NCBI GenBank assembly: GCA_902785935.1
Contig: CADAAN010000007.1
Span: 1-35,195 of the forward strand
DNA: 35,195 nucleotides
Source: an uncultured Pseudomonadota bacterium
Lineage (GTDB): Bacteria > Pseudomonadota > Alphaproteobacteria > RF32 > CAG-239
Direction: 5' to 3'
This document shows, piece after piece, positions 2,221 to 22,214 of the stretch (the stretch's first letter is position 1; each line of letters opens with the position of its first letter). The position numbers and the translations under genes were made by a program. A model generated the notes under the pieces. That model made no database searches, had not been told where the DNA came from, and saw nothing but the letters and a program-made list of their open reading frames with translations.

Positions 2221-2474
2221 TGGATAGAAAAAGTGATTTTTTTATCAAGTACCCTGATAGGGTGCGGGGCTTTAGAAGGCTCTGACTTTGAGCAGTGAAC
2301 GATAACACTGTATTTTAGTGTTGTTTTTTTATTTTAAACAACAGTTATCCCCGAAGTTTTAGTCGGGGTGCTGATGGCGGATGTACAAGGTTTAGAACCT
2401 AAAGGCTATCAGAGTCATTTCTCAAAGTCTGATTTTCTAACACCCCGTCGCCCCTTGAATGGTGCGACTTTTTT
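2221..2474 (+). ncRNA. Structured RNA of unknown family (RNA-A copy 1)
   Basis: A transcript of about 254 nt is bounded by a strong promoter and an intrinsic terminator. No coding frame fits. Helices visible in the sequence are: 5' hairpin 2223-2246; short hairpin ACCCT/AGGGT at 2251-2262; a long closing stem in two blocks, 2272-2277 with 2435-2440 and 2284-2292 with 2421-2429; GATAAC 2301-2306 with GTTATC 2344-2349 enclosing a GTTGTTT/AAACAAC stem; CCCCGA/TCGGGG at 2349-2368; and CTGATGGC 2371-2378 with GCTATCAG 2405-2412, whose loop carries the conserved bases GGATGT and CCTAAAGG. A second copy at 13859-14107 keeps the same helices with different bases. I do not recognise the family. It could be a stand-alone sRNA or the leader of a gene now lost. 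Confidence 0.8.
2447..2474 (+). terminator. Intrinsic terminator of RNA-A copy 1
   Basis: GTCGC at 2447-2451 pairs with GCGAC at 2464-2468 and is followed directly by six T. The equivalent hairpin ends copy 2. Confidence 0.75.
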
Positions 2475-2482
2475 AATGGTGC

Positions 2483-13858: not shown

Positions 13859-14107
13859 AGATAGAGAAGAAACTTCTTTATCAAGTACCCTGATAGGGTG
13901 CGGGGCTGTAATGAGCCTTTGTTTCGTGCAGTGAAGGATAACACTGTTTTTGGTGTTGTTTTTTTATTTTAAACAACGACTTATCCCCGACAGATGCTCG
14001 GGGAGTCCGTAGCGGATGTCCAATGCAAATTCCTAAAGGTTGCGGAAGTCATTACACGAAACATGATTCATTAACTCCCCGTCGCTCCTTAAAGGTGCGG
14101 CTTTTTT
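13859..14107 (+). ncRNA. Structured RNA of unknown family (RNA-A copy 2)
   Basis: Second copy of the RNA at 2221-2474. It shares 31 identical bases (13877-13907) around the ACCCTGATAGGGT hairpin and 25 identical bases (13953-13977), but the helices differ in sequence while staying paired. The closing stem is TAATGAG 13909-13915 with TTCATTA 14067-14073 plus TTTCGTG 13922-13928 with CACGAAA 14055-14061, where copy 1 has TTAGAA/TTCTAA and GACTTTGAG/CTCAAAGTC. TCCGTAGC 14006-14013 pairs with GTTGCGGA 14039-14046, where copy 1 has CTGATGGC/GCTATCAG. It ends in the same kind of terminator. It lies directly upstream of the first BspA-like gene. Confidence 0.82.
14081..14107 (+). terminator. Intrinsic terminator of RNA-A copy 2
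   Basis: GTCGC at 14081-14085 faces GCGGC at 14097-14101 with a CCTT/AAGG core between them, and six T follow at 14102-14107. Confidence 0.7.
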
Positions 14108-14212: not shown

Positions 14213-15499
14213 ATGAAAACACGATATTTAATTTTAATTGCAGGGTGTGCACTTTATGGCACAAATGCCTATGCCGCTTGCGCAAACAACCAAACTTGCG
14301 GCACAAACTGCTGTTGGGATTTAACTGGTGGAACGCTGACAATTTCTACAGATAATAAAGCAAGAGCAGGCGCGATGGAAAATTATGGCCTTTCTGAAAC
14401 TCCTTGGTATTCGCAAAGAAAAACTATCAAATCCGTTGTGGTTGAAGGTGCTAATGAAACGACAGGAACAAAGGGTATTACATCAATCGGAAATTATGCC
14501 TTTTATGGTGCTGAAAAAATGACTTCTGTGGTAATCCCAGAATCGGTTACATCAATTGGAGATAGTGCCTTTTTTAAGGCCAGTAGCTTAACCTCAGTTA
14601 CGATACCTAATTCAATAACAGCGATTGCGGATAGAGCTTTCTATGGTGCCATCAGCTTAACCTCAGTTACGATTCCCGATTCGGTCACTTCGATTGGAGC
14701 GGCTGCTTTTAGTAGTGGTACCAATTATGGAAGATTAGAAACTCTTGTAATTCCCGATTCGGTCACTTCGATTGGAGACGTTACATTTGGTATGCAACCA
14801 AATTTAACTTCATTAATTTTGAGCGATTCAGTTGAATCAATAGGTTATAGAATATTTAATCAAGCTCCTAAATTAAATTCTCTTGTTATTCCTGATTCGG
14901 TTTCGTTGATTGCGGATAATGCTTTTTTGGGTACAGGTTCTAACGGTACACTTTATTGCCCATCTACACTAGATTGCACAGGTAAAGGTTATAACGGCAC
15001 GATTGTCAGCTACACCAAAGGTGATGACGGGGTTTATACCACATCGGACGGTACGACTTATGCCTCGCCGGAAGATATGCAAAATAATCTTGCCTGCACG
15101 ACGGATTGCGCCGAAAAGGTTGCGGCATATAAAGATGCCAAGGCTCAATCGATGGCAGGAGGCAGTCTTTGTGCCACAAAAGATGCGTGCCTCAATCTGT
15201 TAGATATGGTTTCTGACAGTAATTATACCTGCGGTACAGGTGGCGCAAAAAATACAATTGCAAATTGCAGTGCGTATGTCAAAGCAAACAATATTGAACT
15301 TGCAAGCCTTTATGATAGAACTCCGCCTGTTAAGGAAGAAGAAATCGTCACAAGCAACGGCGGTGAAGACACGGGTGGTCTTGACGATGTTGAAAAAACA
15401 CCCTCAGCCCCAGCTCGCGCAGACATTCGCATCTATACCATCGATGAGGCCAATCAAGTTGCGGGCAAAACAAATTCCTTCAAAATAAGGTACAGATAA
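14213..15499 (+). CDS. Secreted BspA-like leucine-rich-repeat protein 1
   Basis: The 428-residue product starts with a signal peptide (MKTRYLILIAGCALYGTNAYA, cut near residue 21), then a Cys-rich segment and GGTLTIS. About seven BspA/LRR_5 repeats follow (residues about 80-260), of the form LTSVTIPDSVTSIGAAAF. The next part has cysteines and short helices, then a flexible acidic Gly/Thr/Pro linker and a C-terminal tail RIYTIDEANQVAGK ending in FKIRYR. The tail is almost identical to that of the protein at 24498-25922. BspA-like repeats mediate adhesion to host matrix or other cells; here function is inferred from the family. ATG 14213 has the ribosome site TAGGAG. RNA-A copy 2 and a REP-like element lie immediately upstream. 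Confidence 0.88.
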   Translation: MKTRYLILIAGCALYGTNAYAACANNQTCGTNCCWDLTGGTLTISTDNKARAGAMENYGLSETPWYSQRKTIKSVVVEGANETTGTKGITSIGNYAFYGAEKMTSVVIPESVTSIGDSAFFKASSLTSVTIPNSITAIADRAFYGAISLTSVTIPDSVTSIGAAAFSSGTNYGRLETLVIPDSVTSIGDVTFGMQPNLTSLILSDSVESIGYRIFNQAPKLNSLVIPDSVSLIADNAFLGTGSNGTLYCPSTLDCTGKGYNGTIVSYTKGDDGVYTTSDGTTYASPEDMQNNLACTTDCAEKVAAYKDAKAQSMAGGSLCATKDACLNLLDMVSDSNYTCGTGGAKNTIANCSAYVKANNIELASLYDRTPPVKEEEIVTSNGGEDTGGLDDVEKTPSAPARADIRIYTIDEANQVAGKTNSFKIRYR

Positions 15500-20478: not shown

Positions 20479-20783
20479 AAAAAAAACAGACTTTGAAGAC
20501 AAAATCTGTTTTTTTAAGGGTTCGGAGCTTCGAAAAGCTTTTGGTTGCGGTGTTTAGAACAACACTTACATAAAAACTCCCCGTAAAAAGGAAATCCGCC
20601 GTTAGTTGACATAAAAGCGGACAGGAAGTAGAAAAACTATAAGCAAGAAATAGTTGCAGCTTATTGACACAAAGCTATTTGGCTGCCTTCCGGCCCGTTG
20701 GACTTTCAGGCGTCTTTAATCAGACATTCACTTGCTTATTAACGGGTTTTTCTCATTTCCCGGAACATCCATCGGATCTTCTG
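20479..20783 (-). ncRNA. Structured RNA with predicted pseudoknot, unknown family (RNA-B)
   Basis: A transcript of about 305 nt starts after a near-consensus minus-strand promoter and ends at a terminator. An outer stem pairs 20746-20753 with 20630-20637 (AGAAAAAC/GTTTTTCT). Inside it, 20741-20746 pairs with 20694-20699 (CCCGTT/AACGGG) and 20731-20739 pairs with 20639-20647 (AUAAGCAAG/CUUGCUUAU). These two stems interleave, giving a pseudoknot. Further hairpins are GTCT/AGAC near 20711-20724 and a UUCG-capped AGCTT stem near 20527-20545. I compared it by eye with tmRNA, RNase P RNA, SRP RNA and 6S RNA and found no convincing match. Confidence 0.55.
20485..20510 (-). terminator. Terminator of RNA-B
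   Basis: On the minus strand AACAGA (20510-20505) pairs with TCTGTT (20490-20485), flanked by A/T runs; eight T follow (plus-strand A at 20479-20486). It can also act on the plus strand. Confidence 0.65.
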
Positions 20784-20789
20784 GGTCAT

Positions 20790-20818
20790 ATATTAGCAAA
20801 TTCTAATAAAGATTGCAA
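20790..20818 (-). promoter_or_regulatory. Promoter of RNA-B
   Basis: On the minus strand TTGCAA (20818-20813), a 17-base spacer and TAATAT (20795-20790). Confidence 0.65.
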
Positions 20819-20951: not shown

Positions 20952-22214
20952 TCAATGATATTTTTCTAATATTTCAGTTTTTGCCGCAAGGCTGAGCATA
21001 TCATCATATGCACCATTTTGAGGGTTGGCAATCCTGCCGGCAATAATTGTCTTAACTTCAGGCAATTTCCACGGCATGCCCATCAGCTTAAAATAAGCCA
21101 TATCGGCCATCAAACGCGCTTCCATCATCTGCCCGAAAGCACTGTATTTAATCGCCGGCCTTTGTTTTAATCGGCGCCTTAAAACCTCAAAACGCGATTG
21201 ATGTTCGGGCAAAACATATCCTTGAAAAACAAGCAAATTTTCAAAACTTTCGCGCACAATCGGATTTTTCCACCCACCGCCGAAAAGAACGATATTTGAA
21301 GGTAAATCAAATCTTTCTTCAATCAGCGTCAGCGCAAAAGCCGCCGTGTATGCCGCCAAATATTCAAGCGTAAAAACGGCATCTTCAAAACACGCATCTG
21401 ATTGTTCTATTGCCTCTAAAACATCCGACAGATGATAATATTGCGGATCGCCCGACTTTGGCAATCCTGCCTCATAATAGTCGCGGTCAAGATCAAAAAG
21501 ACGCATCAAAAGTTTTTTATCAAGCTTGCCGTTTTTGCCGTATTTTGCATCAAAATCGCAAGAATCATCTGTCTTTTTTCTGATAAAAGAATCGATATAT
21601 TCATTGCACGGACCCGCATCGGCACTTAAAAGCGCCTGAGCGTTTTTTATCAAAGCAAAATTTGATGTATTGCCGGCGTTATAATAAATGCCATCTCCCT
21701 CAATCAAAGCAATTCGGGCATTATGCGGTGCAATTAACGGAGCCCCTTCAAAACCTTGTAAGATAAATGCCGATCTGAAGTCATAAACAACTTTGATACC
21801 CGTTAAATCAGCAAGCATCTTACCGCTTCCGATTTGCAAAGTATAGGGCTGTGAACCTTCCTTAAAGGCTTTTGAAGGCGGATTATGATCAAGTGTCTTG
21901 CCGTGGAAACCGATGGCATCAATATCTGCTTTATCCAAATGATAAAAAGCACACATTTCTAAAACCGCATTTGCTACGCTTTTGACATATTCATCATGAA
22001 TTGCCTTAAATTCCGGCAAACGCAAAATTTCCGCTTTGTTTTTATTTTTTACTTTCAAGCGTAAATTTGCCGTTTTTTGTTGCATTTTTTTTGAAAAAGG
22101 CTTTGAAAATGCGCAAATATCTTTTATCTGTGCACCATTAAACTCACTTAAGACAAGGTCAATCGCATCCATCGAATTACCTGTCATAATCCCGATGATG
22201 CGATAAGTTTTCAT
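20952..22214 (-). CDS. anmK: Anhydro-N-acetylmuramic acid kinase
   Basis: AnmK phosphorylates and opens the 1,6-anhydro ring of anhydro-MurNAc, giving MurNAc-6-phosphate in peptidoglycan recycling. The 420-residue product starts with the ATP-binding strand YRIIGIMTGNSMDAID (family consensus GxMSGTSxDGxD), and has FHGKTLDHNPP, QIGSG, DFRSAFILQG, GAPLIAPHN, and DAGPCNEYID, all in family order. It is about 40 residues longer than many AnmK. The start ATG 22214 has GTGAGG in front, and map lies 11 bases upstream on the same strand, so the two are probably co-transcribed. The YhcH-like gene may also belong to sugar recycling, but it is far away. Confidence 0.9.
   Translation of the reverse strand: MKTYRIIGIMTGNSMDAIDLVLSEFNGAQIKDICAFSKPFSKKMQQKTANLRLKVKNKNKAEILRLPEFKAIHDEYVKSVANAVLEMCAFYHLDKADIDAIGFHGKTLDHNPPSKAFKEGSQPYTLQIGSGKMLADLTGIKVVYDFRSAFILQGFEGAPLIAPHNARIALIEGDGIYYNAGNTSNFALIKNAQALLSADAGPCNEYIDSFIRKKTDDSCDFDAKYGKNGKLDKKLLMRLFDLDRDYYEAGLPKSGDPQYYHLSDVLEAIEQSDACFEDAVFTLEYLAAYTAAFALTLIEERFDLPSNIVLFGGGWKNPIVRESFENLLVFQGYVLPEHQSRFEVLRRRLKQRPAIKYSAFGQMMEARLMADMAYFKLMGMPWKLPEVKTIIAGRIANPQNGAYDDMLSLAAKTEILEKYH

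Follow-up and report, generated by a model that had tools for sequence, protein, structure and literature searches.

The RNA encoded on the minus strand at positions 20479 to 20818 of the window (the whole stretch of 35,195 nucleotides analysed here) is a member of a very large RNA family that is absent from Rfam 15. Judged from the sequences of its copies, this is probably an uncatalogued family of pseudoknotted cis-regulatory RNAs of Alphaproteobacteria that act mainly as transcription attenuators, the window RNA being one of its members. A sequence-only reading had left the RNA unidentified, and comparison with Rfam release 15 agreed: no family reached its gathering score with the window element or with its relatives. 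The match of lowest E-value to the window RNA strand, GcvB, scored 17.7 bits against the 42 required. No description of the element was found in the open-licence literature. That reading had seen none of the features typical of tmRNA, RNase P, SRP or 6S RNA, and rightly so, as none of the four matched at the locus and all gave single strong matches elsewhere in the genome (C24, C11, C52 and C53, respectively). The tmRNA is of the alpha type, which identifies the genome as alphaproteobacterial. A permuted tmRNA was rejected on the same ground, the tmRNA gene lying elsewhere, as was an SRP identity for the SRP-like motif GGCCGGAAGG, the SRP RNA having been located elsewhere.

The sequence-only reading had placed the RNA in a 550-base gap between the Bat operon and anmK. 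A domain search bore this out, assigning anmK (20952-22214, minus strand; PF03702) to one side and a DUF4381/VWA/BatD operon (from 20401 down, minus strand) to the other. The near-consensus promoter and the terminator that had been described in this gap were recovered as well, the latter accompanied by a second, weaker hairpin:

20790-20818, minus strand: promoter, TTGCAA (20818-20813), 17 nt, TAATAT (20795-20790), with an extended -10 TGC; kept in the same-genus genomes G001, G004 and G007.
20595-20622, minus strand: weaker terminator-like hairpin c:d, GUCCGC...GCGGA followed by a U-rich stretch, its 5' arm overlapping strand c.
20479-20515, minus strand: strong terminator-like hairpin of 16 bp with a U tail, seen in the fold.

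A generic consensus scan did not flag the promoter. In folding calculations the 340-nt RNA (20479-20818) outfolded 100 of 100 shuffled sequences (z -4.4). Homologues of about 79% identity were found by blastn in the same three genomes, where the core is conserved together with the promoter; several weak matches (for instance L007) lay inside genes and were discarded as chance. The 3' part of the window RNA also holds a ribosome-site-like GGGGAG followed by ATG TAA, a start and a stop codon (20572-20567, minus strand). This arrangement is not kept in G001.

Comparison of the relatives defined the following helices, all on the minus strand:

20743-20762, minus strand: hairpin H1, CGGG (20762-20759) with CCCG (20746-20743), the loop holding the 5' strand of P1.
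20630-20753, minus strand: outer stem P1, AGAAAAAC (20753-20746) with GUUUUUCU (20637-20630).
20639-20739, minus strand: helix P2, AUAAGCAAG (20739-20731) with CUUGCUUAU (20647-20639).
20712-20725, minus strand: small hairpin H2, GUCU/AGAC, read from the sequence; relatives have a CGUC/GACG-type hairpin at the matching place.
20686-20711, minus strand: local hairpin H3 (a:b), GCCUGAAAGUC (20711-20701) with GGGCCGGAAGG, which competes with the pseudoknot; permutation z=8.
20656-20686, minus strand: helix P3, GCAGC (20686-20682) with GCUGC (20660-20656), enclosing a conserved AAUA...CAAUA internal loop.
20637-20653, minus strand: helix P4, CUAU (20653-20650) with AUAG (20640-20637), the loop being the 3' strand of P2.
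20620-20695, minus strand: pseudoknot PK2, strand b GGCCGGAAG (20695-20687) with strand c CUUCCUGUC (20628-20620).

The outer stem of the sequence-only reading corresponds to P1. Of the two interleaved stems that it had drawn inside, 20731-20739/20639-20647 is conserved and corresponds to P2, but 20741-20746/20694-20699 (CCCGUU/AACGGG) is lost in the three closest relatives. This pseudoknot was rejected, since relatives pair CCCG with CGGG (20762-20759) in a small hairpin. The idea of a pseudoknot was thus wrong in that detail, whereas others, H1 with P1 and GGCCGGAAG with CUUCCUGUC, are strongly supported. As H1 crosses P1, PK2 crosses both P1 and P2, and P4 crosses P2, the fold is predicted to be a compact multiple pseudoknot.

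The paired bases were found to be conserved in relatives, as expected if the sequence-only reading was correct in proposing a structured RNA. In 102 distinct sequences, H1, P1, P3, P4 and PK2 together had 97.9% of cells paired, compared with 83.2% after shuffling and less than 48% after sliding; because the alignment had been fitted on P1 and P3 alone, those two are favoured, and H1, P4 and PK2 are independent of it. Double compensatory changes occurred at 24 of the 28 base pairs of these five helices, with 444 double-changed cells observed against 106 in shuffles. Within the same sample, P1 was paired in 99.8% of cells and double-changed at 6/6 pairs, P3 in 99% and at 5/5, and PK2 in 98.5% and at 7/9, the window copy having one C.U mismatch in PK2. 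All four pairs of H1 showed double changes, and its strands change together among relatives (CGGG/CCCG, AGGG/CCCU, CGG/CCG). P4 was nearly invariant (CUA/UAG) in the set used for permutation tests, and its covariation appears in the wider sample of 102 (CCG/CGG, CUG/CAG, CCA/UGG, CAA/UUG). Permutation tests supported P1 (z=23), P2 (z=29, 60 relatives), H1, H3, P3, PK2 and the terminator; among the paralogues of a single genome, G026, they still gave z 15 for P1 and z 18 for P2. The sequences of P1 and P2 are hypervariable yet complementary, which could be ordinary helix drift. The unpaired bases of the P3 internal loop are nearly invariant.

In two comparisons G.U pairs outnumbered A.C pairs (172 versus 22 and 119 versus 4). 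As G.U exceeds A.C, the constraint acts on RNA, of the minus strand in the case of the window copy. A site of recombination or transposition acting as DNA and not as RNA would be in line with the many dispersed copies, plasmids and viral contigs included, but is made highly improbable by this bias and by the layout of promoter, terminator and ribosome site.

The copies share a common switch anatomy. Strand b (GACNGGAAG) is complementary both to strand a (UUUCCGGC or CCUGAAAGUC), which is local and lies upstream, and to the late strand c (CUUCCNGUC), which is shared with an intrinsic terminator, c:d, as its 5' arm. Helices a:b and c:d are compatible with each other, while b:c excludes both; this predicted a/b/c/d arrangement is the classical layout of an attenuator. 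A terminator-like hairpin was present in 94 of the 102 copies, compared with 20 when the downstream sequence was shuffled, and in 91/102 its 5' arm overlapped c, the strand of the alternative helix, as expected for an attenuator (median overlap 4 nt). In most copies the terminator stands between the RNA and the start codon. In the set of the AUGUCCA-type variant (type II, see below), a clear terminator was seen in 28/41; it is missing from some copies, especially those of large genomes and phages. Using simple start-codon rules to call downstream genes, we found a start codon within 70 nt downstream in 119/144 copies (median 49 nt), accompanied by a ribosome-site-like motif; the T run was seen ahead of the start in 119. 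This leaves little room for another promoter, and expression should therefore depend on read-through. In the mechanism that we propose, each family RNA would be transcribed from its own promoter, and b would pair either with a or, as a pseudoknot braced by P1, P2, H1 and P4, with c. Formation of a:b and c:d would stop transcription ahead of the downstream gene, whereas formation of b:c would deprive the terminator of its base and let the gene be read. The two folds may interconvert, with the pseudoknot as the ON state, and a ligand or a protein would deliver the signal to the conserved loop inside P3 (AAUA..NAAUA, or AUGUCCAGGC..GCUAAA).

The extent of the family was followed with three covariance models. 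The first, built from seven sequences, found the RNA in 112 of the taxonomic family's 152 genomes, frequently with many copies in one genome, and the second, a whole-element model, found it in further families. The third was built because model R2 missed copies of the type II variant in the window; in this variant AUGUCCAGGC...GCUAAA replaces AAUA...NAAUA in the internal loop of P3, so that the family has two core variants, an AAUA type and an AUGUCCA type. With the third model, 132 of the 152 genomes of the taxonomic family were positive, as were 53 of 385 from the whole class, some of these 4-6 Mb in size. Relatives are spread over many alphaproteobacterial families and are also carried by conjugative plasmids and viral contigs. 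Of the carriers that have names, most are uncultured Alphaproteobacteria or proteobacteria, and ruminant gut is the source of many. Counted with these models, which were built in this analysis with short calibration, the window's own genome holds at least 63 copies, found in the 1.07 Mb (73%) of it that were scanned, and the 1.6-Mb genome G026 holds 95 dispersed matches with E no higher than 0.1, of which about 87 have E<0.001. The suggestion that the size and complexity of the window RNA pointed to a housekeeping or ribozyme-class RNA does not fit such a multi-copy leader family; tmRNA, RNase P, SRP and 6S RNA are like it in size range only. The window itself gave three matches (2360-2452, plus; 13994-14086, plus; 20617, minus), the two on the plus strand being:

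13890-14107, plus strand: second window copy, type II, with a terminator, a regular leader of a BspA-type LRR gene (14213-15499; PF13306); its pairings are UAAUGA/UCAUUA for P1, GUUUCGUG/CACGAAAC for P2 and CGGGGAG/CUCCCCG for PK2.
2284-2452 or 2284-2475, plus strand: third window copy, type II, 49.8 bits, upstream of tRNA-Phe (2691-2766), with a P2-type pairing GACUUUGAG/CUCAAAGUC and followed by a terminator-like hairpin.

A 388-aa ORF that starts inside the tRNA-Phe gene is one that we presume may encode an integrase. Some copies stand in tandem, about 250 nt apart, before a single gene (G000:C48, 282-381 and 522-624; G000:C39, 10458-10558 and 10709-10814; G007:C79).

The genes that follow the copies suggest that the regulated functions are accessory, mostly surface proteins. 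In G026, 20 of the 21 copies examined (L094-L113 and L060) precede prepilin-like proteins with a GRSMIEMLGVLAIIGVLSVGG motif, whose N-terminus is nearly constant and whose C-termini diverge; this set possibly represents a variable surface repertoire. In the window's genome, BspA-type LRR proteins account for 24 of the 45 proteins encoded downstream, and prepilin-like and RHS-repeat proteins are among the others. Lipoproteins, outer-membrane beta-barrels, glycosyltransferases and helix-turn-helix regulators were found downstream in other genomes. The downstream functions do not converge on one ligand. This bears on whether the family is, strictly speaking, a new class of riboswitch, in which a small molecule binds the P3 internal loop and sets the attenuator. 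The 102 sequences do share a conserved, covarying aptamer-like fold of the kind expected for riboswitches, and the near-invariance of the unpaired loop bases, the existence of two core variants, the attenuator layout and the tandem copies before one gene are all in favour of such a class. However, the downstream genes are very mixed, each copy has its own private P1/P2 pair, and a protein or chaperone ligand would suit equally well, so that we hold this narrower reading as a serious but tentative possibility, somewhat short of even. Among known systems, c-di-GMP GEMM leaders precede pilin and surface genes, and trp-type attenuators oppose helices 1:2 and 3:4 to helix 2:3. The family resembles these intrinsic-terminator riboswitches and attenuators in its leader position, in the competing helices a:b, b:c and c:d and in the terminator before the gene, and resembles GEMM leaders also in its surface and pilin targets. 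It differs in matching no Rfam family, in forming several pseudoknots at once, in reaching dozens to about 90 copies per genome and in carrying two hypervariable private helices.

Mobile elements carry the family too. Plasmids typed as conjugative carry the type II variant in Agrobacterium, Methylorubrum and Paracoccus, and unannotated plasmid copies were identified in Methylorubrum, Agrobacterium, Paracoccus and Methylobacterium (L485, L486, L487 and L489), L485 being the copy on p1METDI of Methylorubrum extorquens DM4; two plasmid copies have ParB-like genes nearby and one precedes a helix-turn-helix regulator. A blast search of plasmids gave no match for the window element itself. In a viral scan the type I pattern was not detected and type II patterns were present on about 43 contigs. 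Short forms in phages (L338, L389, L410, L316 and L339) consist of the b..c module only and stand directly behind a promoter and before regulatory ORFs, several of which resemble, by eye, Rha or BRO proteins. In several phage forms the P4 loop and the Shine-Dalgarno region are complementary (CCGUUGG/CCAACGGAG, CUCCGUAG/CUACGGAG and CUCCUACUG/CAGUAGGAG). The C4 antisense RNA of phages P1 and P7 has a loop complementary to the ribosome-binding site of its target (PMC5320573), and the family may work like C4 in phages. The resemblance to C4 and to the C4-like sRNAs of Acinetobacter (RF01695; PMC5320573) extends to a three-helix b..c module with variable address loops, to a site before phage regulatory genes and to multi-copy co-option in one genome. 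C4 identity itself was rejected: the RF01695 covariance model matched neither the genome nor seven viral records that carry the family. We note that the phage short forms would represent a C4-like group that escapes detection by Rfam.

A further reading would make the whole family C4-like antisense immunity RNAs, with b..c as a three-way junction, P4 loops that hit target leaders in trans as in P1 and P7, and chromosomal copies that have been domesticated. The phage short forms next to Rha/BRO-like and other regulatory ORFs, with their P4 loops matching Shine-Dalgarno regions, argue for it, as do the presence of the family on plasmids and viral contigs and the hypervariable addresses, which recall the a'/b' loops of C4 (PMC5320573). 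Yet, besides the failure of the RF01695 model, downstream complementarity was found in 14 of 41 mobile-element copies against at most 12 in shuffles, barely above chance, and the window copy showed no complementarity of its P4 loop to a ribosome-binding region. Chromosomal copies differ from C4 in having a terminator and in supplying the partner strand themselves: the 5' part of the RNA pairs with its own P4 loop in 37/40 and 56/63 copies, the latter count, from the window's genome, requiring at least 8 nt and comparing with at most 9 in shuffles. We therefore regard an antisense immunity role for the whole family as doubtful.

Within a family composed mainly of putative attenuators, the window copy seems to be a divergent member whose neighbouring target gene was either lost or never there. 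The copy keeps H1, P1, P2, H3, P3, P4, PK2 and a weak first terminator, but the position upstream of a regulated gene that an attenuator implies was not found in the window or in G001, G004 and G007. The next sense gene (DUF4381) begins 215 nt beyond the copy, behind the second terminator; in G001 it lies about 216 nt off, and in G004 and G007 the following gene is oppositely oriented. In contrast to those of leader copies, its P1 and P2 3' strands hardly vary among the four species. Most likely, this copy is transcribed into a stand-alone RNA, about 170 or 300 nt long, which would be either a trans-acting or sponge-like (sequestering) relative of the leaders, or a captured leader. SreA and Rli55/EutX-type RNAs are stand-alone relatives of riboswitches. 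Like them, the window copy seems to be a leader-type RNA with no adjacent regulated gene. The missing neighbour, the weak first terminator, the mismatch in PK2 and the start codon met at once by a stop (20572-20567) could also be signs of a decayed leader with no remaining function. We consider this unlikely, as promoter, core and 3' strands show almost no change between four species in which the loci differ, a pattern that neutral decay would not produce.

A structured RNA of this kind, with 60 to more than 90 copies per small genome, covariation at nearly all base pairs tested and no entry in Rfam 15, would, counted per genome, be one of the most abundant regulatory RNA families known. A bolder extension is that the private P1/P2 pairs make an addressable switch, allowing terminated leaders or stand-alone RNAs to act in trans and choose among surface proteins, in a system descended from or ancestral to the C4-like phage immunity RNAs; we give this little credence at present. 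If the private helices do act in trans, they would constitute a new kind of addressable control, and if the conserved loop binds a messenger, the family would be a new riboswitch class. The copies on rhizobial and methylobacterial plasmids provide directly testable systems in cultivable hosts. The family would govern the surface repertoire (prepilin-like, BspA-like, lipoprotein and outer-membrane barrel genes) of common uncultured Alphaproteobacteria of the gut and rumen.
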